From NCBI GenBank assembly GCA_002841625.1, contig PHAG01000009.1, forward strand, positions 248,001 to 312,000: a DNA stretch of 64,000 bases, read 5' to 3'. The DNA is from Firmicutes bacterium HGW-Firmicutes-1 (GTDB lineage Bacteria > Bacillota > Clostridia > Lachnospirales > Vallitaleaceae). The notes beneath the pieces are model-generated. The model saw only the letters and a list, made by a program, of their open reading frames with translations, ran no database searches and was not told where the DNA came from. Made by a program: the position numbers and the translations under genes. Shown piece by piece: positions 19,688-29,645 of the stretch; the first letter of the stretch is position 1, and each line of letters begins with the position of its first letter.

Positions 19688-20803
19688 ATGAGTAATGTAC
19701 TTGAAAAAAAGTTAATTATCTTGGATGATTTATTTCCCTATCTTAAGACAGGCTTTAGGGTATCAGAATACAATCATTATCTAGATAAATTTCCTAACTG
19801 TGAGATGTATTCCAACGTATATGAAAAATATATTGATGAATATTCCAAAGTCTATCCTCAATATACAGAGAAGATTAAACCAATTGCAAGCTTTGACAGT
19901 TCAAGAAGAGATTACGCTTTAATTTACACGGTTTTTATAAATGGTATCATGAATTATCTAAAATTTATTAATGCTACGCATACGCCATTTGTTTTTACAC
20001 TATATCCCGGAGGGGGATTTTGGTTAAATGATCCAGTTGTAAATAATAAACTCGTGTATGCATTTAAATCTCCATATTTTAGGAAAGTTATAGTTACCCA
20101 AAAAAGAACCTATGATTATATTATAGAAAATGGTTTTGTTACAAAGGATCAAGTAGAGATGATCTATGGGATGGTAACACATCCACAGTATTTTAATGAA
20201 ACAATACCTAAGAAATATTACAAGAAGGATAAGCCTAACTTTGATATTTGTTTTGTTTCACATAAATATATGCCTAGAGGAATCGATAAAGGGTATGATG
20301 TTTTTATTGAAGTATGTAAAAAGCTTGCAGTTGATATCCCAGACATTAGATTTCATGTTGTGGGGAATTATAGCAATGGAGATATTGATGTTAGCCAGAT
20401 TCGAGACAAAATTACGTTCTATGGGTTACAAAACTCGGATTTTTTTCAAAAGTTTTATTCAAGTATGGATATGATTATTTCACCAAATGTTCCGTTTGTA
20501 TTGGTTAAAGGAAAAAATTTCGATGGTTTTCCAACAGGTTGCTGTATTGATGCAACATTGAATGGTGTTGGTTTATGCTGTACAGATGAGTTGCATCAAA
20601 ATATATCGTTTAAGCATCATCAAGATATCATAATTGTACAAAGAGATGTGAATACAATTGTTAATCAGGTTAAATACTATTACACTTCACCACAGAAATT
20701 GTATAAGTTATCTATGCTAGGCCAATTGAAATCAAAAAAATTATTTGATTTTAATATGCAGATGGAAAAAAGAGTAGCTGTTATCCAAGAAGCAATGCAA
20801 TAG
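19688..20803 (+). CDS. GT4-like glycosyltransferase
   Basis: 371 residues, ATG behind a GGAGGG site. N-terminal half LIILDDLFPYLKTGFRVSEYN, TPFVFTLYPGGGFW, SPYFRKVIVTQK. C-terminal half FDICFVSHKYMPRGIDKGYDVF, FHVVGNYS, GLQNSDFFQKFYSSMDMIISPN and FDGFPTGCCIDATLNG, i.e. a GT-B fold with donor site in the second half. The N-terminal half resembles residues about 515-700 of the fusion protein at 482-3166, which lacks the donor half. The gene has its own short leader after the terminator. Acceptor unknown. Confidence 0.78.
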   Translation: MSNVLEKKLIILDDLFPYLKTGFRVSEYNHYLDKFPNCEMYSNVYEKYIDEYSKVYPQYTEKIKPIASFDSSRRDYALIYTVFINGIMNYLKFINATHTPFVFTLYPGGGFWLNDPVVNNKLVYAFKSPYFRKVIVTQKRTYDYIIENGFVTKDQVEMIYGMVTHPQYFNETIPKKYYKKDKPNFDICFVSHKYMPRGIDKGYDVFIEVCKKLAVDIPDIRFHVVGNYSNGDIDVSQIRDKITFYGLQNSDFFQKFYSSMDMIISPNVPFVLVKGKNFDGFPTGCCIDATLNGVGLCCTDELHQNISFKHHQDIIIVQRDVNTIVNQVKYYYTSPQKLYKLSMLGQLKSKKLFDFNMQMEKRVAVIQEAMQ

Positions 20804-20962
20804 CTAAAGATACAAATAAATGGAGAATTCAAAGGATATATATGACTAGCTTATCACAGTAGATTCATTGGGATTTGTATTAACTCATATACTGTATAAT
20901 GAAGGATGATGATTCAATGTCTAGCTATTCTACATCCGAACAGCACATATAGAGGTTATTTA

Positions 20963-21796
20963 ATGAAAAAAGTATTAATCACTGGGGCAGGAGGGCAACT
21001 AGGTTCAACGCTAGCCGTACAGAGTGTCCTTTATGATGTTTTCTCTTTTAATAAAAAGCAACTAAATGTTGTAAATAAGCAAGAAGTTTTTCAAGTGTTT
21101 AAGGCTATAAAACCACATTTTGTGATTCATACTGCAGCCTATACGAATGTTGATGAGAGCGAAGTCAATAAGCGTATTGCCTTTGAGGTTAATTGTGACG
21201 GAACAGAAAACATAGCATTGGCTTGCAAAAAATGGGATTCAGTTATGATTTATATGAGTACAGATTATGTTTTTGATGGTAAAAAAAAAGAGCCTTATAC
21301 AGAAGAAGATGTACCGAATCCAGTTAATTGGTATGGTTTAACAAAATTAATAGGGGAGGAAACAGTTAAAGTTCTATTGGATAAATATTTTATTTTAAGG
21401 ACTTCTTGGTTGTATGGTCCTAGTGGCAAAAATTTTGTAAAAACCATCCTTGAGATGGCAGAGACTAGCTTAGAAATCAAAGTGGTGAATGACCAAATGG
21501 GTTGCCCAACTTATGTCAAAGATTTGTGTAAGGTCATTTTTCAACTCATCGAAGTCAATGGTTATGGTATTTATCATGCATCAAATGTAGGCGTCTGTTC
21601 ATGGTATGATTTTGCCAATTCAATACTTAAGATGAGCGGAAATAAAGAGACATTTCTTCTTCCGATTTCTTCAGAAGAACTGAATAGATTAGCAATAAGG
21701 CCTCACAATTCAGCTCTTCAAAACACAAAAAGTGTTTATACAATGCCTGAATGGAAAGAAGCTCTAGAGGATTTTATGAAGACTGATCACGAATAG
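20963..21796 (+). CDS. rfbD: dTDP-4-dehydrorhamnose reductase (RmlD/RfbD family)
   Basis: 277 residues, started at the ATG behind AGAGG rather than the in-frame ATG 57 bases earlier, since the nucleotide-binding motif LITGAGGQLGS must be near the N-terminus. VIHTAAYTNVDESE, STDYVFDGKK, the Y-x3-K pair in WYGLTKLIGE, LRTSWLYGPSGKNFV and VVNDQMGCPTYVKDL are characteristic of RmlD, which reduces dTDP-4-keto-rhamnose to dTDP-rhamnose with NAD(P)H. No rmlB or rmlC is in the window, and the RmlA-like gene at 3484 looks inactive. The rest of the pathway must lie elsewhere if this enzyme makes rhamnose. Confidence 0.88.
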   Translation: MKKVLITGAGGQLGSTLAVQSVLYDVFSFNKKQLNVVNKQEVFQVFKAIKPHFVIHTAAYTNVDESEVNKRIAFEVNCDGTENIALACKKWDSVMIYMSTDYVFDGKKKEPYTEEDVPNPVNWYGLTKLIGEETVKVLLDKYFILRTSWLYGPSGKNFVKTILEMAETSLEIKVVNDQMGCPTYVKDLCKVIFQLIEVNGYGIYHASNVGVCSWYDFANSILKMSGNKETFLLPISSEELNRLAIRPHNSALQNTKSVYTMPEWKEALEDFMKTDHE

Positions 21797-21823
21797 AGAG
21801 AGAGGAGATTAGATACGCTCCTC

Positions 21824-22327
21824 TTAAACCTCTATAGGCTTTTTCATTATTCTATAAAAAAAGTATGCAACGATTACTGCAATGATATTTAAGGTCACTG
21901 CGGTAACGATTTTTGTTTGTGTAACTGTTTCTTTCATTTCATAGCCTTCTTCTATAATCTCAAGGCTAATATTATGAACATCTATGTCTCCCCCGTGTTC
22001 TATACAGGCTCTACTAAATATCCCTTTTATCTTAATGATGTCACCTTTATGTTTATAATCCCCATAAGTTTTTATTAAATTGGCATCTTCAATTGTAAGC
22101 CATATGCCTATTGCATTGGTACCATCGTTTATATTAACCCATGCATAATCGCCTCTTTCCAATGCCTCTCCAATTGCTTCTCCTTGAATAGTAACTTCTT
22201 TTTCATCTAACTCTCTTGTGTTTTCGATAAGTTCATTAATTTCTATATAAGATGTCCCGTTGACGATCCCTGTTAAAAGGGTAATGAAAATGAATAATAT
22301 AATTAATACTTTTGGTTTCTTTCCCAT
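21824..22327 (-). CDS. Membrane-anchored OB-fold-like protein
   Basis: 167 residues. The start is inside the end of trkH (25-base overlap), with GGAGGT upstream. A hydrophobic N-terminal segment (VLIILFIFITLLTGIV) reads as signal or anchor. The middle, with YIEINELIENTRELDEKEVTIQGEAIG, WVNINDGTNAIGIWL and GDIIKIKGIF, looks like an OB-fold nucleic-acid- or ligand-binding domain. A C-terminal transmembrane helix (VTLNIIAVIVAYFFYRIM) ends in a basic tail. Overlap with the potassium channel gene suggests co-expression with the Trk system. Function unknown; it may assist assembly or sensing on the outer face. Confidence 0.6.
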   Translation of the reverse strand: MGKKPKVLIILFIFITLLTGIVNGTSYIEINELIENTRELDEKEVTIQGEAIGEALERGDYAWVNINDGTNAIGIWLTIEDANLIKTYGDYKHKGDIIKIKGIFSRACIEHGGDIDVHNISLEIIEEGYEMKETVTQTKIVTAVTLNIIAVIVAYFFYRIMKKPIEV

Positions 22328-23841
22328 AACTTCTTGATACCTCCGATAAAATAACCGATTAATGCAAAGACTGAAAGAAACTCAAGTCTTCCTAAAAACA
22401 TAGCAATGATATAGTAGATTTTTAAGAGTGAAGGCATTGAAGGTGAGGTAATTCCAATAGAGAAACCAACATTGCCTGTAACGGATGCTGCTTCAAACGC
22501 AGCATCTAAAAGCGGATATCCATAATAGGCCGCTATAGCTGTTCCAATTGTAAAAGTTATCATATAGCAGATGATAATGACAGAGGATGTTTTTATAATT
22601 CTGTCGTCTAGCACATGATCCTTTATGTGATGAAACTTATAAGCTTTTACATTTCTTTCAGGGGATAGTAGCCTTTTGACATCTGCAACAATGCCTTTTA
22701 TAACAATTCCAACCCTGAGTCCTTTAAAACCTCCAGCAGTAGAGCAGGCAGAACCTCCAATTAGCATAGCTACTATCATAATTAAAATTCCAAAGCCACC
22801 CCATTCTTTAGCAAACTGCCGAGCATATATAGACCCCAATCCAGTAGTTGTATGAGCAGATAATACATTATATACAACTCTTCTAAATGCAGAGATAGCA
22901 TTAGAATATATCCCGGTTTTTGATAACCCAATGGCAGCAAAGGTACAGGCAAGAAACGAGGTAATAACGAAGCTTTGTACTTCAATATTTTTAAGTAGTT
23001 CCTTTTTTTTGCCTTGCCATATAGCATAGTGAAGACCGAAATTTAAGGAGCCTAAAATGAAAAATACAATTGTAATCACTTCAAAGGAAAAGCTATGATA
23101 ATACATAATATTCTGAGACATCGGTGAAAAGCCACCAGTGCTCCAGGAAGATACAAACATAAATAGTCCGTGAAAAAATGCTGATACGGGATTTAAACCA
23201 ATTAACATACCATTTATCCATAAAACAATTGTTCCAAAAATTAAATAGATCATACTGATTTTCCAAATGAGCCTTGTAGTACCTTTTACATTTGGAGCAA
23301 GCTCAATATCCTTACCCTCACCGACGTAGAACTTATAGGCGCCACCAACTTGTTTTACTAAAAATGTCAATGCAAGTACTACGACTCCTTGGCCTCCAAT
23401 AAAAGTAAGCATATGTCGCCACATATTTAAGCTAACAGATATATGATCTAAATCTTGTGTGAGCGCCAAGCCTGTTGTGGTAAACCCACTCATTACATCG
23501 AAGCAGGCATCTAGAAATGAAAGGGTATGTCCGCTTAATCTGTATGGAATGGAACACAATACCATTAATAGAATCCATGAAAAGGAGACAACTACAAAAC
23601 CATGTTTCCATTGTAAAGCTGCTTTGTTTTCACGTATTCGCTGACCGAACAAGACCAAAGACATACCTATAAGAGTAGAAATAACCATAGTGATTGCAAA
23701 GTCAAATAGAGGATTCCATTCTTTAAAAACCAAAGAGGTTAGTATCGGTATTATCATAAGAAGAGCTGTTCCCAGAACAATATATCCAGAATAATAACTA
23801 ATTACCATTGTATTATAAAATCTTATTTTGTTTGTGTTCAA
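22303..23841 (-). CDS. trkH: Potassium uptake transporter, TrkH family
   Basis: 512 residues, starting at TTG behind GAGGTGAG. Four pore repeats of the TrkH/KtrB type are visible: SGFTTTGLALT, SSWSTGGFSPMS, LSAHTTTGLGS and ASVTGNVGFSIG, each carrying a selectivity-filter glycine. About ten hydrophobic segments are present. GGQGVVVL near the first loop and GGSACSTAGGFKGLRVGIV late in the protein are family marks. It carries K+ (with Na+ or H+) into the cell and needs cytoplasmic RCK proteins, encoded directly upstream by two trkA genes. The small peptide gene at 23846-23950 lies four bases upstream. Confidence 0.93.
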   Translation of the reverse strand: MNTNKIRFYNTMVISYYSGYIVLGTALLMIIPILTSLVFKEWNPLFDFAITMVISTLIGMSLVLFGQRIRENKAALQWKHGFVVVSFSWILLMVLCSIPYRLSGHTLSFLDACFDVMSGFTTTGLALTQDLDHISVSLNMWRHMLTFIGGQGVVVLALTFLVKQVGGAYKFYVGEGKDIELAPNVKGTTRLIWKISMIYLIFGTIVLWINGMLIGLNPVSAFFHGLFMFVSSWSTGGFSPMSQNIMYYHSFSFEVITIVFFILGSLNFGLHYAIWQGKKKELLKNIEVQSFVITSFLACTFAAIGLSKTGIYSNAISAFRRVVYNVLSAHTTTGLGSIYARQFAKEWGGFGILIMIVAMLIGGSACSTAGGFKGLRVGIVIKGIVADVKRLLSPERNVKAYKFHHIKDHVLDDRIIKTSSVIIICYMITFTIGTAIAAYYGYPLLDAAFEAASVTGNVGFSIGITSPSMPSLLKIYYIIAMFLGRLEFLSVFALIGYFIGGIKKLWERNQKY

Positions 23842-23845
23842 GAGC

Positions 23846-23950
23846 TCACCTCACTATGATGAAGGTTAATATGAAGGTTAATGATATAAATGAAATAACA
23901 GATAAAATCTCAAGGAAGATTCCTTCAAATTCATTTCTTTTGTTTTTCAT
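23846..23950 (-). CDS. 34-residue single-pass membrane peptide between trkA and trkH
   Basis: A short frame on the minus strand: ATG at 23950, TGA at 23846-23848. GGAGGTG stands just upstream, and the ATG lies inside the last codons of trkA (20-base overlap). The product starts MKNKRNEFEG and then has a 20-residue hydrophobic stretch (IFLEILSVISFISLTFILTF), ending IIVR. Its last codons form the GAGGTGA site for trkH four bases downstream. Size and context resemble KdpF, a small peptide that stabilises the Kdp potassium pump. That parallel is inference. The coupled start and stop make it unlikely to be chance. Confidence 0.72.
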   Translation of the reverse strand: MKNKRNEFEGIFLEILSVISFISLTFILTFIIVR

Positions 23951-24617
23951 GATGCACACCTCCATTACGAAACCGTTTCTTTAATTCTTGTAAAACAACA
24001 TTGTTTGAAACCATTAAAACCCTATCATCTTCAAGAATCTGGTTATCTCCTCTTGGGTAAATGATTTTTTCGTTGCGGAGTATAGAAACGATTATGCATT
24101 CAACAGGTAGGTGCAAGTCCCTAATATAAAAATTACACCAAGGGCTACTTTCTTCTATAGATATTTCAACCAATAACATTGCACCCCGTTCAAAGGTCTG
24201 CATAATTTTAAAATTATCTCTGTCAAATTCAAATTCAATTAAGTTTGCGATAACCTCAGTACTACAAACTGTTTTATCAACGCCAAGAGCTTTAAACATT
24301 ACGGTGTTTTTAGGGTTATTAATACGTGCAATTGTTTTATTAATATCAAAATTAATTTTTGATATTTCGCAAATAATCAAATTCTCCTCATCACTACCCG
24401 TAACTGCTGCTATAATTTCAGCTTCTTCAATACCTGCATCAATTAATACATCAAGATCTGTGCCATCACCACAAATAATATCAGCTTCAATATCTTCTGC
24501 AATTCTACTGCAGGTATTTTTATCTCTTTCTATCATTGTTACATGATAATTTCTATCTTTAAGCGTTTTGAGCAGGAAGTATCCTACCTTACCACCGCCT
24601 ATAATAATTGATTTCAT
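23931..24617 (-). CDS. trkA: Trk regulatory RCK protein TrkA (second copy)
   Basis: 228 residues. ATG overlaps the previous trkA by four bases. RCK_N domain with the nucleotide loop IIGGGKVGYFLLKTL and the acidic end of strand two (MIERD), then CGDGTDLDVLIDAGI, ARINNPKNTVMFKALG. The C-terminal RCK_C part runs from about residue 135 (FERGAMLLVEISI... PRGDNQILEDDRVLMVSN). It binds NAD(H) or ATP and gates TrkH on the cytoplasmic face. The two copies differ in sequence and probably form a hetero-oligomer or respond to different ligands. Its last codons hold the start of the 34-residue membrane peptide. Confidence 0.92.
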   Translation of the reverse strand: MKSIIIGGGKVGYFLLKTLKDRNYHVTMIERDKNTCSRIAEDIEADIICGDGTDLDVLIDAGIEEAEIIAAVTGSDEENLIICEISKINFDINKTIARINNPKNTVMFKALGVDKTVCSTEVIANLIEFEFDRDNFKIMQTFERGAMLLVEISIEESSPWCNFYIRDLHLPVECIIVSILRNEKIIYPRGDNQILEDDRVLMVSNNVVLQELKKRFRNGGVHHEKQKK

Positions 24618-25267
24618 ATTGGCATCTCCTTAGAAATTGAAGATATTAATTTATCTCTGTGTTTTTTATTTATAGTACATATAATTCTGTCGCCATATTT
24701 TAAAGGTTCATCTTTTTTAGGAAGAATTATTTCGCCCTCTTTAAGAATTCCAGAAATAATACAGGAGTATTTATCTTCTATGTCTTTTACCAAACAAGGC
24801 TTTTCTCTAAGTATTGTAAGCTCAATAATTTCATAATCTTTATCTAATGCTGCAACAATATCAAGACTTTTTACTGTTAATCTGCTTTTAAGTATCTTAA
24901 CACCTAAGCGAACAGGATTAATCGTGTCAATATCCAGTTTTTCATATATATACTTTTTGTTTGGATCATTAACCCGGGCGATAATATTTGGAACCTTATA
25001 AATTTTTTTAGCAATAAGTGCAACAGTAATATTTATGTTATCATCCTGATTCACCGCCAACAAAGCATCTGCTTGTTTAATTCCTGCTTCAATAAGAATG
25101 TCATTATCAAATTCTACGCCTTTAATTTTTTGCCCATTAAAACCACTTCCTAAAACGTTTAATTTTTCTCCATTTCTATCAATGATTGAGACGTCATGTC
25201 CTGAATCGGTTAACTCCTTAGCTAAATTACTTCCTAATCTTCCACAGCCAATAACTATAATATACAT
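24614..25267 (-). CDS. trkA: Trk regulatory RCK protein TrkA (first copy)
   Basis: 217 residues, ATG behind GAAAGGTG. RCK_N: YIIVIGCGRLGSNLAKEL, IDRNGEKLN, GVEFDNDILIEAGIKQADALLAV, ARVNDPNKKYIYEKL. RCK_C begins near 135 (VAALDKDYEIIELTIL) and ends LPKKDEPLKYGDRIICT. The family controls TrkH opening in response to nucleotides. It overlaps the next trkA by four bases and follows the TPR gene by 26 bases, so TPR, trkA, trkA, the small peptide, trkH and the OB-fold protein form one operon. A KdpE box could control it, but I see no clear one. Confidence 0.92.
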   Translation of the reverse strand: MYIIVIGCGRLGSNLAKELTDSGHDVSIIDRNGEKLNVLGSGFNGQKIKGVEFDNDILIEAGIKQADALLAVNQDDNINITVALIAKKIYKVPNIIARVNDPNKKYIYEKLDIDTINPVRLGVKILKSRLTVKSLDIVAALDKDYEIIELTILREKPCLVKDIEDKYSCIISGILKEGEIILPKKDEPLKYGDRIICTINKKHRDKLISSISKEMPI

Positions 25268-25293
25268 GATTCACACCTTTCTTTTTTGATAAA

Positions 25294-25689
25294 CTAATCC
25301 ATATCAAAATTAGTGTTGTTATTACCTAAATCAGGTTTTATAGGTTTTTTCCTAAAGGAATAAGTAGTCAGCCTTCTTAGATTTCTGATTGCTGGCAGGT
25401 AAGTAGGATCAAGTGCGTTCGCAGCAAGATAATGTCTACCTGCATAACCTAATTCTCCATTTAGTTCCGAAAGGGCACCTAATAAATTGTGTGCTTCAGG
25501 AGCATGATAATTTATAGAAATAGCTTTCATAATATTACTTTCAGCCTCTTGGAAAAATTTGTTTTCTAGATAATCAATAGCTTGCAAAATATAATAGTGA
25601 TATTTATTAAAGTTTTTGATTGTAGCATCCATGTCATTTTTTTCGTTTATTTCATTCAACATGTCATTGATTTCCTGTGCCTTATCCAA
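25294..25689 (-). CDS. TPR-repeat protein at the head of the Trk operon
   Basis: 131 residues if translated from TTG at 25689; GAGGTG sits at 25696-25701. A GTG at 25698 lies within that site and would leave no spacing. TPR-like helices are visible: YYILQAIDYLENKFFQEAESNIMKA and PEAHNLLGALSELNGELGYAGRHYLAANALDP. There is no membrane segment. Its position suggests a role linked to potassium uptake, but TPR proteins are versatile and nothing in it is specific. Confidence 0.6.
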   Translation of the reverse strand: MDKAQEINDMLNEINEKNDMDATIKNFNKYHYYILQAIDYLENKFFQEAESNIMKAISINYHAPEAHNLLGALSELNGELGYAGRHYLAANALDPTYLPAIRNLRRLTTYSFRKKPIKPDLGNNNTNFDMD

Positions 25690-25811
25690 TCCAATCACCT
25701 CGTTTCCAACAAATTAATTTCTACAATATGATGATATCAAGTAACACATGAACAAGGTGTGAAGAATAGGAGTAATGGTGTAAATGTTATGTTAAGATGA
25801 GCAAATCTTTA

Positions 25812-25841
25812 TACAATCTTTACATTCTTCTATGATATAAT
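25812..25841 (+). promoter_or_regulatory. Candidate promoter of the KdpD-like/KdpE operon
   Basis: TATAAT at 25836-25841 with a weak TACAAT 18 bases upstream, about 40 bases ahead of the start at 25884. The same gap must hold the divergent Trk promoter, which I could not place. Confidence 0.4.
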
Positions 25842-25883
25842 GGCGTTATAAACATAACGGCAATCTAAAGAGGTGAATTTTGA

Positions 25884-27470
25884 ATGAAAATGAAATTATT
25901 CGAGCATTTATCTGCAGGTGTTCCTTTTATAGAAGAAGAATGTATACAAAAGAAAGATCATTACAAAAAGGTTCTAAATTTGATGATCACTATTTGTATT
26001 ATGCTAGGAATCACTTTCTTGTCTTTTGCCTTTAGATTTATTGGATTTCATGAATCCAACATTATTGTTACCTACATTTTAGGCGTATTGCTTGTTGCAA
26101 AACAGACAGATGGATATTTTTATGGAATTGTAGCTTCAGTAATTGGCGTATTAACCTTTAATTTCTTTTTTACAGAACCTTATTATACTTTTTATGTCCA
26201 TAGGGCAGATTATCCGGTAACCTTTGCTATTATGCTGATTGCTGCTATGATCACAAGTACCTTAACTGTAAAAGTCAAGAGAGAAGCCATGCTATCCTAT
26301 TCAAGAGAACAGAAGACTCAATTATTGTATAAAATTAATAAAAATCTCCTACAGGTAAGAACAATGACCCAAATTGCCGAAGTAGGTGGGAGGGATATTG
26401 GGAAATTATTTAGTCGTACGGTGCTTATCGCTACTACTAATCCAGATGATACAAATTATGAACCGTATATTTATGCCCACCATAATGATGAACGAGGAGA
26501 GTTGCTGAAATCAAACGATGAAATCATGGCAATCACGAAAGCTTTTCAAACAGGAGAAGCAGTAGGTGCTGGTACGCATGTGTTTTCAAATTGTGTTGCT
26601 TATTATTTTCCTATCATAGGTCATGGTAATGTTTTAGGAATTGTAGGTATTGCATGTTTTAATCATCAATATTTATCAGAGGAACAAATTAAGCTATTAG
26701 AAACTGTGACAACACAAATAGCTCTTGCAATTGAAAGAGAACGTTTATGGGAAAAACAACAAAAATCTAAACTGGATGTAGAGAGGGAGAGAATTAAGGG
26801 GAATTTACTGCGTGCAATTTCTCATGATTTAAGAACACCTTTAACAAGTATATTAGGTGCAACCTCTACAATCTTAGACAATGATCATATTATAGATGGT
26901 GAAGTAAAAAGAGAGTTGTTACAAAATATCTATGAGGATACAAGCTGGCTGATTCATACGGTAGAAAATATATTGAGTATAACAAGAATTGATGATGGTA
27001 GAATTGAAATTGTAAAGAACATGGAAGCCATAGAGGAAATAGTGGGTGAAGCTGTTTCGCGGATTAAAAAATTATCTACAAATCATACTATAAAAATTAA
27101 TATACCAGATGATCTGATATTGATTCCTATGGATGGTATGTTGATTGAACAAGTATTGATTAATCTTATAGATAATGCAATTAAATATACACCATATGAA
27201 TCTACGATTGAAGTTAAGGTATATTTAATCAATAACAAGGTGGTATTTGAAGTCTCGGATGATGGAGAGGGCATTAAAGAAGAAAATAAAGAGGTTATCT
27301 TTAATAGATTTTATTCTAATGCACTTGGGAATGATACAGAGAAGCGTGGTACAGGTCTTGGGTTAGCGATATGTAAGTCTATCATTACTGCTCATGGTGG
27401 AGAAATATCTGTATTTAATAATTTCTCTGGAGGTGCAACATTTAGATTTATATTAGAGAGTGAGGAGTAA
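25884..27470 (+). CDS. KdpD-like sensor histidine kinase without the N-terminal KdpD domain
   Basis: 528 residues. Four hydrophobic segments lie between residues 30 and 130 (DUF4118-type), followed by a GAF-like region (about 140-285), a HisKA helix with His314 (AISHDLRTPLTS), and a HATPase domain with N-box LIDNAIKYTP, DDGEGI and GTGLGLAI. Full KdpD is near 900 residues and carries an N-terminal cytoplasmic KdpD plus universal-stress domain. Both are absent, as in several Gram-positive homologues. It shares an operon with KdpE, six bases apart, and faces the Trk operon, so it probably senses potassium or osmotic state for Trk. No kdpABC is in the window. Confidence 0.88.
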   Translation: MKMKLFEHLSAGVPFIEEECIQKKDHYKKVLNLMITICIMLGITFLSFAFRFIGFHESNIIVTYILGVLLVAKQTDGYFYGIVASVIGVLTFNFFFTEPYYTFYVHRADYPVTFAIMLIAAMITSTLTVKVKREAMLSYSREQKTQLLYKINKNLLQVRTMTQIAEVGGRDIGKLFSRTVLIATTNPDDTNYEPYIYAHHNDERGELLKSNDEIMAITKAFQTGEAVGAGTHVFSNCVAYYFPIIGHGNVLGIVGIACFNHQYLSEEQIKLLETVTTQIALAIERERLWEKQQKSKLDVERERIKGNLLRAISHDLRTPLTSILGATSTILDNDHIIDGEVKRELLQNIYEDTSWLIHTVENILSITRIDDGRIEIVKNMEAIEEIVGEAVSRIKKLSTNHTIKINIPDDLILIPMDGMLIEQVLINLIDNAIKYTPYESTIEVKVYLINNKVVFEVSDDGEGIKEENKEVIFNRFYSNALGNDTEKRGTGLGLAICKSIITAHGGEISVFNNFSGGATFRFILESEE

Positions 27471-27475
27471 AAGTT

Positions 27476-28177
27476 ATGAATAATAAACCTTTGGTCTTGG
27501 TAGTAGAGGACGACAAACCAATTTGTAAGTTTATTTGCGTATCACTTGAGGCTCAAGGGTATGCTTGTGTAGATACTCAAAACGGTAAGACAGCAATATC
27601 ACTTATTTCATCACACAACCCTGATATTATTATTATGGATTTAGGGCTTCCTGACATTGATGGTATCGAAGTAATTGCAAAGGTTAGACCTTTTACAAAA
27701 GCTGCAATTATTGTAGTATCAGCGCGGGGTCACGAAAGAGAGAAAGTAGAAGCTCTTGATAGTGGGGCAGATGACTACTTAACAAAGCCTTTTAGTGTTG
27801 CAGAACTATTAGCACGCATTCGTGTTGCTCTTAGGCACACAAATCAAAGTGTTCTTTTTGAAGATGAAGAATCTAAAATTTTTGTGATAGGTGAATTAAG
27901 GATTGACTATGAAAGACGACGTGTTTTCATATCAGATGAGGATATACATCTAACGCCAATAGAATATAAATTATTAGTATTGTTGGCAAAACATACCGGT
28001 AAAGTATTAACCCATAAGTATATTTTAAATGAAGTTTGGGGGACATATTCAGGTGACGATACGCAGTCGCTTAGAGTATTTATGGCTAACATTAGAAGGA
28101 AGATAGAAAAAGATCCTGCGGAACCTAAATATATACTTACGGAAGTTGGTGTAGGGTATAGGATGATTGATGAATAA
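27476..28177 (+). CDS. kdpE: Response regulator KdpE family
   Basis: 233 residues. Receiver domain: EDD acidic pocket at 11-13, phospho-acceptor Asp55 in IIMDLGLPD, Lys in DDYLTKPFS. OmpR-type winged helix from about 130 (VIGELRIDYERRRVF, LTPIEYKLLVLLAKHTGKVLTH, VFMANIRRKIE). It follows its kinase by five bases. The nearest potassium genes are the divergent trk set, which are plausible targets; no kdpABC genes are present here. Confidence 0.9.
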   Translation: MNNKPLVLVVEDDKPICKFICVSLEAQGYACVDTQNGKTAISLISSHNPDIIIMDLGLPDIDGIEVIAKVRPFTKAAIIVVSARGHEREKVEALDSGADDYLTKPFSVAELLARIRVALRHTNQSVLFEDEESKIFVIGELRIDYERRRVFISDEDIHLTPIEYKLLVLLAKHTGKVLTHKYILNEVWGTYSGDDTQSLRVFMANIRRKIEKDPAEPKYILTEVGVGYRMIDE

Positions 28178-28263
28178 AGTAGTCTTTGCCATTAAATTGC
28201 TCGTATGATATAATTTAACTGGATGACAGATATTTATGTTGATATTTATTTTTGGAGGTTCAA

Positions 28264-29157
28264 ATGGCTAGCTTATCACTTATGCCGATCAAAGGGAATA
28301 CTTATTATATACCTAGTCCAACTAATATTGGTGTATATGTTCAAAACAATGAAGCAACCATTATTGATAGTGGATTAGATAAAGATGTAGCAAAACAAAT
28401 TCTTAAACTGCTTGCTGAACAGGGGTGGTCTTTAAGCTGTATTATTAATACTCATTCCCATGCTGATCATATTGGTGGGAATGCTTTTTTGTGCGAAAAA
28501 ACAGGGTGTCAGGTGATTGCCTCTAAAGGGGAAGCGGCTTTCATCCAAGTACCTTTGCTAGAACCCTCTTTACTATATGGAGGATATCCATATAAGGTAT
28601 TAAAAAATAAGTTTTTAATGGCCAAAGCTTCTTATGTTACACAGATTATTGAAGCGCCAACTGTTCTAACACACACAAAATTAGAAATTATCCCTTTAAA
28701 AGGTCATTCAATAGATATGATTGGCATCAAAACTCCAGATAACATCTTATTTATGGGGGATTCCTTATTTCCTGAAAATATTTTAACTAAGTATAGTCTA
28801 ACCTATCTGTGGGATATTCGGACTTCTCTAGAAACGATCGATGCATTAAAAACCATCGATGTAGATTTATTTGTTCCAAGTCATGGGGAGCCTATTCAAG
28901 ATGTATCAGTTCTTTGTGATGTGAATAAGAATAAGATCATTGAAATTGCAAATGTTGTTTATCAGAATTGTGATGAACAAGTAACGACAGAAGACATACT
29001 ACAAAGAATATGTCTTCATTATCAAACGAGTCTGAATGCGACCCAATATGTTTTGTTATCCAGTACATTACGTTCTTACTTATCCTATTTATATGACGAG
29101 GGTAAAATAGAGACTTCCTATGAGAATGGTAAACTCACCTGGATTAAAAAAGCTTGA
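28264..29157 (+). CDS. Metallo-beta-lactamase-fold hydrolase
   Basis: 297 residues, started at ATG 28264 (GGAGG at 28254). The zinc motif THSHADH (H64, H66, D68, H69) is present, with a later GHS and a GDSLFPENI metal aspartate and SHGEP histidine. The spread of ligands matches the glyoxalase II / MBL-fold hydrolase group. Thiol-ester hydrolysis is the common reaction, but the substrate is not evident. The last ~70 residues form a helical extension (winged-helix-like, ATQYVLLSSTLRSYLSYLYDEGKIE). Single-gene unit. Confidence 0.82.
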   Translation: MASLSLMPIKGNTYYIPSPTNIGVYVQNNEATIIDSGLDKDVAKQILKLLAEQGWSLSCIINTHSHADHIGGNAFLCEKTGCQVIASKGEAAFIQVPLLEPSLLYGGYPYKVLKNKFLMAKASYVTQIIEAPTVLTHTKLEIIPLKGHSIDMIGIKTPDNILFMGDSLFPENILTKYSLTYLWDIRTSLETIDALKTIDVDLFVPSHGEPIQDVSVLCDVNKNKIIEIANVVYQNCDEQVTTEDILQRICLHYQTSLNATQYVLLSSTLRSYLSYLYDEGKIETSYENGKLTWIKKA

Positions 29158-29168
29158 GTAACACGCTT

Positions 29169-29645
29169 TTATATAACGCGATTTTCAGTAACTGCTTTTT
29201 TATCAAGGTAAAGACCTATCACAAAACCTGCAAGAACACTAACGTACATGCCATATTTTAATGCACCAGGAATGTAGTTTTTTAAGGTGATTGAAACAAT
29301 AATGCCAAGTACGACACCAATAATTACGCCGAAATTAACATAATGTCTTATCTCAACTATTTTATGTCGTGTTTTTAAATGCTTATAGATCGTATCCATG
29401 ATTTTAAAATATTGGGTAGTATCATGATTAGATTGGGTTTTGATGAACGAAAGTTCAGTTAAGAGGGTTTCAACTTCAGTCTTTAGCTCACAACATTCGG
29501 TACAAGATGATTGAAATAAATCAACCTTAACCAATAGTTTTTTTAACCAATTAATTTGATACTTTTTAGTTTCTTTTTCACTGAATCCGTTGGTTACGGC
29601 TTCAATTTTATCTATTAATTCTAAATACCATGTACTTTGTTCCAT
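29169..29645 (-). CDS. Small membrane protein with cytoplasmic helical head
   Basis: 158 residues, ATG behind GGAG. The N-terminal 100 residues are helical and charged, with two cysteines (CTECCELK). Two adjacent transmembrane helices follow (VIIGVVLGIIVSITL and YGMYVSVLAGFVIGLYL), with a short tail. I do not recognise a family. It is convergent with the MBL gene, the two ends being 12 bases apart. No partner is suggested by context. Confidence 0.5.
   Translation of the reverse strand: MEQSTWYLELIDKIEAVTNGFSEKETKKYQINWLKKLLVKVDLFQSSCTECCELKTEVETLLTELSFIKTQSNHDTTQYFKIMDTIYKHLKTRHKIVEIRHYVNFGVIIGVVLGIIVSITLKNYIPGALKYGMYVSVLAGFVIGLYLDKKAVTENRVI

Follow-up and report, generated by a model that had tools for sequence, protein, structure and literature searches.

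A conserved single-helix peptide encoded between trkA and trkH, a candidate accessory subunit of one TrkH clade

The trk locus and its short gene

Throughout the text, the window means the whole stretch of 64,000 nucleotides from Firmicutes bacterium HGW-Firmicutes-1 that was analysed. On its minus strand, trkA1, trkA2, a short peptide gene, trkH and the gene of an OB-fold protein follow one another in this order, overlapping or almost so. A KdpDE-like pair diverges from this Trk operon. The features of the locus are as follows.

27476..28177, plus strand: KdpE-like response regulator (Response_reg, Trans_reg_C)
25884..27470, plus strand: divergent KdpD-like sensor kinase (DUF4118, GAF, HisKA, HATPase)
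25294..25698, minus strand: 134-aa repeat-like protein upstream of trkA1, TPR-like by eye
24614..25267, minus strand: trkA1, 217 aa, one TrkA_N and one TrkA_C domain
23931..24617, minus strand: trkA2, 228 aa, one TrkA_N and one TrkA_C domain
23957..23963, minus strand: GGAGGTG, ribosome site of the peptide gene as read from the sequence, within the 3′ end of trkA2
23846..23950, minus strand: peptide gene, single-helix product with a GxxxE motif at residues 10–14
23846..23852, minus strand: GAGGTGA, apparent trkH ribosome site, formed by the 3′ end of the peptide gene
22303..23841, minus strand: trkH with a TTG start at 23841, 512 aa, PF02386, of the peptide-bearing clade
21824..22327, minus strand: gene of the OB-fold protein, 167 aa, overlapping the 3′ end of trkH

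The peptide, MKNKRNEFEGIFLEILSVISFISLTFILTFIIVR, is encoded by a minus-strand frame of 34 codons that runs from ATG to TGA (23950..23846). An initial annotation of this DNA had described a 34-codon frame between trkA and trkH that overlaps the end of trkA, carries its own GGAGGTG and forms with its end the ribosome site of trkH, which would start at a TTG four bases on. All of this is present in the window. The overlap with trkA2 amounts to 20 nt, and the GGAGGTG (23963..23957) stands 6 bases 5′ of the peptide ATG. The gene ends in ATA GTG AGG TGA, with the stop at 23848..23846 and the GAGGTGA at 23852..23846, and four bases (GCTC) lie between the stop and the TTG at 23841. An alternative in-frame ATG at 23965 (39 aa) sits on the peptide's own Shine-Dalgarno, and alignment with relatives favours 23950 as the start.

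The charged N-terminus and single helix of that annotation agree with the translated frame, which reads as a basic N-terminus followed by hydrophobic residues 10–33. Its remark that usual gene callers would miss so short a frame does not strictly hold, because the 105 nt of the gene exceed the minimum gene length of Prodigal, which is 90 nt.

The TrkH of the window matches PF02386 with 144.7 bits (gathering score 27). In Foldseek, an AlphaFold2 model from a homologous locus (L095) matched TrkH, KtrB, HKT and KdpA chains; against 6v4k, the TM score was 0.86 by target length at 23% identity. The genome holds one other, ordinary TrkH (L001) and gave no KdpA match. No KdpD N-terminal domain was matched in the KdpD-like kinase. 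The 134-aa repeat-like protein has no Pfam match, and some of the relatives have similar frames 5′ of trkA1. An Rfam scan of positions 20500–29500 gave no match, and a scan for promoters and terminators found no more of them than in shuffled sequences.

Conservation of the peptide and its tie to one TrkH clade

The search of the order covered 392 genomes. Besides the window's own, only three TrkH orthologues of at least 50% identity were found (70, 54 and 50%), and a short hydrophobic frame lies at the same place in all three loci. A search with the four-row TrkH alignment as query covered the best 80 of 129 matching named loci, and a search of the class yielded 5 further loci besides the window's own, 2 of them copies of named loci. 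In this first set, a hydrophobic single-helix frame stands directly 5′ of trkH in 88 of 89 loci; at the sole miss (L064), the contig ends at trkH. With starts picked near a ribosome site, the peptide is 30–53 aa long in 85 of the 88. The other three (L068, L070, L111) measure 63–83 aa from an upstream start and come within the 30–53 range from a later one.

A draw of 398 genomes from the phylum split the TrkH proteins sharply: 19 genomes matched at E 2.6e-175 or better, and the next best at 1.1e-88. The peptide was present in all 18 clade members of this draw other than the window's. The initial annotation had proposed looking for conserved short frames in the trkA-trkH gap of related genomes, and every one of the 104 clade loci that reach upstream has a short single-helix frame right before trkH (100 distinct peptide DNAs). 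This count leaves out the cut locus L064, two copies (L117 and L119, of L036 and L084) and L115, which is the window again.

The carrier records are labelled as belonging to about nine phyla, among them Bacillota, Actinomycetota, Caldisericota, Cryosericota, Spirochaetota and Thermodesulfobacteriota, but the labels may be mistaken in the many records that are metagenome bins, and 27 of the 104 lack a usable title. The clade is patchy: the sole other searched genome of the window's genus is without a peptide-bearing clade TrkH. A plasmid search for the TrkH gave no match at 1e-60.

In one genus (g507; L138, L140, L145–L147, L150 and L163–L169), the peptide is present in an unusually long trkA-trkH gap of 171–190 nt. 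Several of its genomes are near-complete, at 2.4–2.9 Mb, and the genus is a possible tractable host.

A single peptide of such length is by itself weak evidence for a gene, and the frame might be a chance opening within the trkA-trkH gap. Its signature, looked at in isolation, would not settle the matter either: shuffling the residues of a peptide produces the loose motif somewhere in it in 35% of cases. When the gaps themselves were shuffled with their dinucleotides kept, a hydrophobic frame arose in 78 of 4160 (1.9%), and a hydrophobic frame together with the motif in 14 of 4160 (0.34%), against 103 of 104 real loci under the same test. In the real loci, [GAS]xxxE is found in 104 of 104, with Gly in 101. 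This count is not circular, because the frames were picked by hydrophobicity only and the motif was sought afterwards.

Selection was measured in 14 hand-picked groups of close relatives, covering 61 of the 104 loci and leaving out the codons that overlap trkA as well as the last three. The pooled pN/pS was 0.44 in frame, and shifting the frame raised it to 0.98 and 1.36. It was lowest in Acetobacterium and Sedimentibacter (0.13 and 0.14); the weakest groups (0.66 and 0.72) are two Coriobacteriia pairs with about 30 differences each. Conservation across relatives was the test set beforehand for a chance frame and rules it out; together with the clade-wide presence and the purifying selection in frame, it leaves that explanation next to no probability. 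By these comparisons the peptide gene is protein-coding, conserved and under purifying selection at the protein level.

Outside the clade, the picture is different. No such frame was found in 40 control TrkH loci, of which 29 came from other TrkH searches and 11 were the best places of the phylum draw (the draw holds 50 more genomes with TrkH at 1e-60 to 1e-88, and gaps were read at these 11 best places only). In 37 of the controls, TrkA lies upstream at gaps of −74 to +19 nt, which therefore leave no room for a peptide; for the remaining 3, 250 nt upstream were read.

A profile built on the peptides matched, at E 0.01, in 20 genomes of the 398-genome draw, and 15 of these matches lie between trkA and a clade trkH. 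All 19 genomes with clade TrkH carry the peptide, which the profile detected in 15 and inspection of the gap in the other 4; the profile is thus not fully sensitive. The other 379 genomes gave 5 matches, none directly 5′ of a trkH. By eye, one of them is SecG-like, two are prepilin-like and a fourth falls within a long frame that looks efflux-like; close to the fifth (L143), the opposite strand carries a distant TrkH-like frame of 24% identity. Among 24 chosen genomes, the profile matched 20 of 20 with clade TrkH and 0 of 4 without, but these matches are not independent because the profile contains many of the same sequences. Two of the 20 genomes had one weak extra match each (0.0026 and 0.005).

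In a FastTree of 140 TrkH proteins, a single branch (support 96) sets the 100 peptide-bearing ones apart from the rest, which amounts to one change; several rows of this tree are long-branched and drew a program warning. The peptide adjoins trkH in every locus read. In L113, the trkA genes lie downstream and the peptide still stands beside trkH, and in L085 and L100 it is separated from trkA by gaps of 590 and 316 nt. These cases tie it to trkH rather than to trkA.

The clade TrkH proteins are themselves distinctive, with 58 positions conserved at 85% or more in the clade and at 30% or less in 39 controls. Five histidines (133, 143, 249, 330 and 404) occur in 98–100% of 100 clade members and in none of the 39 controls, and H271 in 100% vs 36%. 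H330 is the residue immediately before the TTTG filter motif, and several clade histidines are close to filter motifs.

The view of the initial annotation that this is a real conserved gene is thus backed by the conservation, by the purifying selection and by the strict tie to one TrkH clade. The attachment to trkH rather than trkA goes beyond what it described, as do an invariant glutamate in the peptide and a second partner 3′ of trkH.

The peptide family and the second neighbour of trkH

In an alignment of 56 members made by MAFFT and not anchored on the motif, Glu14 is invariant (56/56), the only such residue besides the start, and Gly10 is kept in at least 90%. Both lie near the N-terminal end of the hydrophobic stretch. 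Over the 12 residues before the motif, Lys and Arg number 294 against 93 Asp and Glu; this count comes from a motif profile anchored on a Glu-demanding pattern, in which a few rows are misplaced and which was not used for conservation. By the positive-inside rule, the basic excess suggests an N-in, C-out topology.

No consistent Pfam or NCBIfam match was obtained for the peptide, only matches of single members (best E 0.00079). No PDB family fits, and PHROGs gave one stray match for one member. A periodic packing face of small residues was not significant at 100 degrees (p = 0.7), in an analysis where the Glu column is circular. AlphaFold2 was also given a read-through chain of peptide and TrkH from the L095 homologue. 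In the model, the TrkH part is good, and the peptide is a helix of moderate confidence (ten-residue means 56–74). In a mean-field coupling analysis of 100 peptide-TrkH pairs (effective number 66), the best inter-protein pair came behind seven intra-TrkH pairs, and a few positions recur throughout, so that we give the analysis no weight.

The OB-fold gene lies 3′ of trkH in 103 of 103 clade loci that reach that far; in the remaining locus of the 104 (L156), the contig ends inside trkH. Its product, by its features an exported membrane protein, has an apparent signal peptide, an OB domain and a C-terminal helix. The AlphaFold2 model (pLDDT 94.2) is an OB barrel by VIA-align, with Z up to 13.0 and an rmsd of 2.5 over 91 residues (3kfu_D), closely followed by OB domains of aspartyl- and asparaginyl-tRNA synthetases and of others. 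No function follows from the fold shared with tRNA synthetases, because a fold alone shows none. No PDB sequence relative was found at E 1, and there was no consistent Pfam or NCBIfam family, the commonest match covering 6 of 52 members and the matches being mostly to OB domains of other proteins.

The OB-fold protein has a conserved C..EHGGDxDIH motif. Cys108, His111, Asp116 and His118 each reach 90% conservation or more among 52 members. The motif could bind a metal.

Possible role and comparison with known systems

We consider it likely that the peptide is a small accessory subunit of one TrkH clade, which it would stabilise or tune. Its basic N-terminus would stay in the cytoplasm, and residues 10–33 would span the membrane as one helix. 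This helix would dock on TrkH with Glu14 placed one turn inside its cytoplasmic end, where a basic or polar TrkH residue could hold it; we would guess at clade-typical basic residues such as K177, R321, K402, K417 and K474. Filling that site may stabilise TrkH or tune gating by the TrkA ring, a role with precedents in KdpF of KdpFABC and CydX of cytochrome bd. Translation is probably coupled along trkA2, the peptide gene and trkH, so that the subunits would be made together. Against the subunit reading weigh the patchy spread of the clade, the pN/pS of 0.66–0.72 in the weakest groups, the moderate confidence of the modelled helix, the failure to find a significant packing face and the barren coupling analysis.

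Such coupling might also be the whole point of the gene: its translation would carry ribosomes from trkA to trkH and the mRNA to the membrane, and the product itself would do little. The peptide gene indeed overlaps or closely follows trkA in most loci. By a loose pattern and with estimated trkH starts, a trkH ribosome site was recognised in 63 of 100 relatives, and in 54 it begins inside the peptide frame. In 28 of 100, the peptide frame closes with AGG as its last codon, and the ribosome site may be what keeps the C-terminal Arg; since AGG can belong to that site, this residue is to be read with care. A mere leader sits poorly, however, with selection on amino acids that persists once the last three codons and the trkA overlap are set aside, with a glutamate invariant across records labelled from about nine phyla and with confinement to one TrkH clade. 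Moreover, in 11 of 100 relatives, 21–46 nt separate the peptide stop from the estimated trkH start. We therefore regard a leader role as improbable.

To much the same small degree, we credit the idea that the peptide acts not on TrkH but on another membrane partner nearby, the OB-fold protein or the KdpD-like kinase. The constant company of the OB-fold gene speaks for it, as does the kinase with its regulator, a pair that borders the operon both in the window and at many Bacillota loci, and in this genome there is no KdpA for the KdpDE-like pair to control. Against it, the peptide adjoins trkH in every locus read, and the OB-fold gene always lies beyond trkH. The kinase, for its part, has no relative within the stretch read at many actinobacterial and Cryosericum loci. 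No locus separates the peptide from the OB-fold gene, so gene content leaves some room for this idea.

If the peptide is a true subunit of TrkH, one branch of a much-studied family of channels contains a part that has been overlooked, although records bearing the labels of about nine phyla keep it. Work on the clade that leaves the peptide out, whether structural or in a heterologous host, would then deal with an incomplete complex. With 34 residues and one invariant acid, it would be a minimal and sharply testable case of a single helix tuning a channel.

A wider and more speculative picture, which we hold to be possible but doubtful, is that of a multi-part Trk machine. In it, the TrkH clade would require two further subunits, a tiny one that crosses the membrane and has its invariant Glu embedded there, and an OB-fold one outside the cytoplasm, in parallel to KdpF-KdpA-KdpC. 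The machine would be gated by two TrkA proteins and not driven by an ATPase, and would often stand beside a KdpDE-like pair. The clade histidines would form a pH- or metal-dependent gate that is absent from ordinary TrkH.

To our knowledge, no small membrane subunit has been described for Trk or Ktr channels, and among the open-licence PMC papers listed on the subject, none deals with a small TrkH subunit. The TrkH/TrkA system of Vibrio parahaemolyticus (3pjz, 4j9u, 6v4j–6v4l) shares the TrkH fold. The titles of the matched entries read TrkH or TrkH-TrkA, and no small subunit or OB-fold partner is named. The present locus differs further in that TrkA is encoded by two separate genes, with a single TrkA_N and a single TrkA_C domain apiece, and in a TrkH clade with His 133, 143, 249, 330 and 404.

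KdpC, a subunit with a periplasmic domain, is a loose analogue of the OB-fold partner. The fold here is an OB barrel with a C-terminal helix, and the relation was judged from Pfam and NCBIfam scans only. KdpC was once proposed to cap the KdpA pore, according to a paper that itself contradicts a gating role for KdpC (PMC6255902).

The initial annotation had likened the peptide to small ion-pump subunits such as KdpF. This likeness holds as a functional model and fails as family membership. Like KdpF (PF09604), the peptide is a tiny single-helix protein encoded directly before a subunit of the K+-transporter superfamily, KdpA there and TrkH here, and at 34 aa with a hydrophobic stretch at 10–33, it has the expected single transmembrane helix of about 30 residues. 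KdpF differs in that it belongs to a P-type ATPase complex and is encoded directly 5′ of kdpA in the kdp operon, whereas the trk peptide stands beside TrkH/TrkA, between trkA and trkH, and has a GxxxE after its basic N-terminus. PF09604 matched none of 56 trk peptides at E 0.1, and in 8 genomes searched with it, no trk peptide was matched at E 10. The model did match KdpF by kdpA, over the cut-off in G1127 and G772 and below it in G982 and G765; with KdpF found beside kdpA in 4 of 7 KdpA-bearing genomes, it is not fully sensitive. Since the model matches true KdpF genes and no trk peptide, we reject the identification of the peptide as KdpF by sequence.

Of 25 genomes searched for KdpA itself, 7 had a match over the cut-off. 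In three of these 7 (G764, G765 and G772), kdpA lies about 5–11 kb from the trk peptide.

In function, KdpF is described as a part of KdpFABC that stabilises the complex (PMC12629597, and the title of a reference from 1999) and as raising transporter activity (PMC7267776). CydX, the 37-aa protein of cytochrome bd oxidase, is similar to the trk peptide as a small protein encoded in the operon of its large partner and tied to one class of that partner. According to PMC4325964, CydX has few highly conserved residues, and its presence goes with the long Q-loop class of CydA. CydX differs in its partner and its context (cydAB, not trk), and 0 of 56 trk peptides match it at E 0.1. CydX is the closest precedent for such a pattern of evidence, and KdpF and CydX together are good functional models for the trk peptide.
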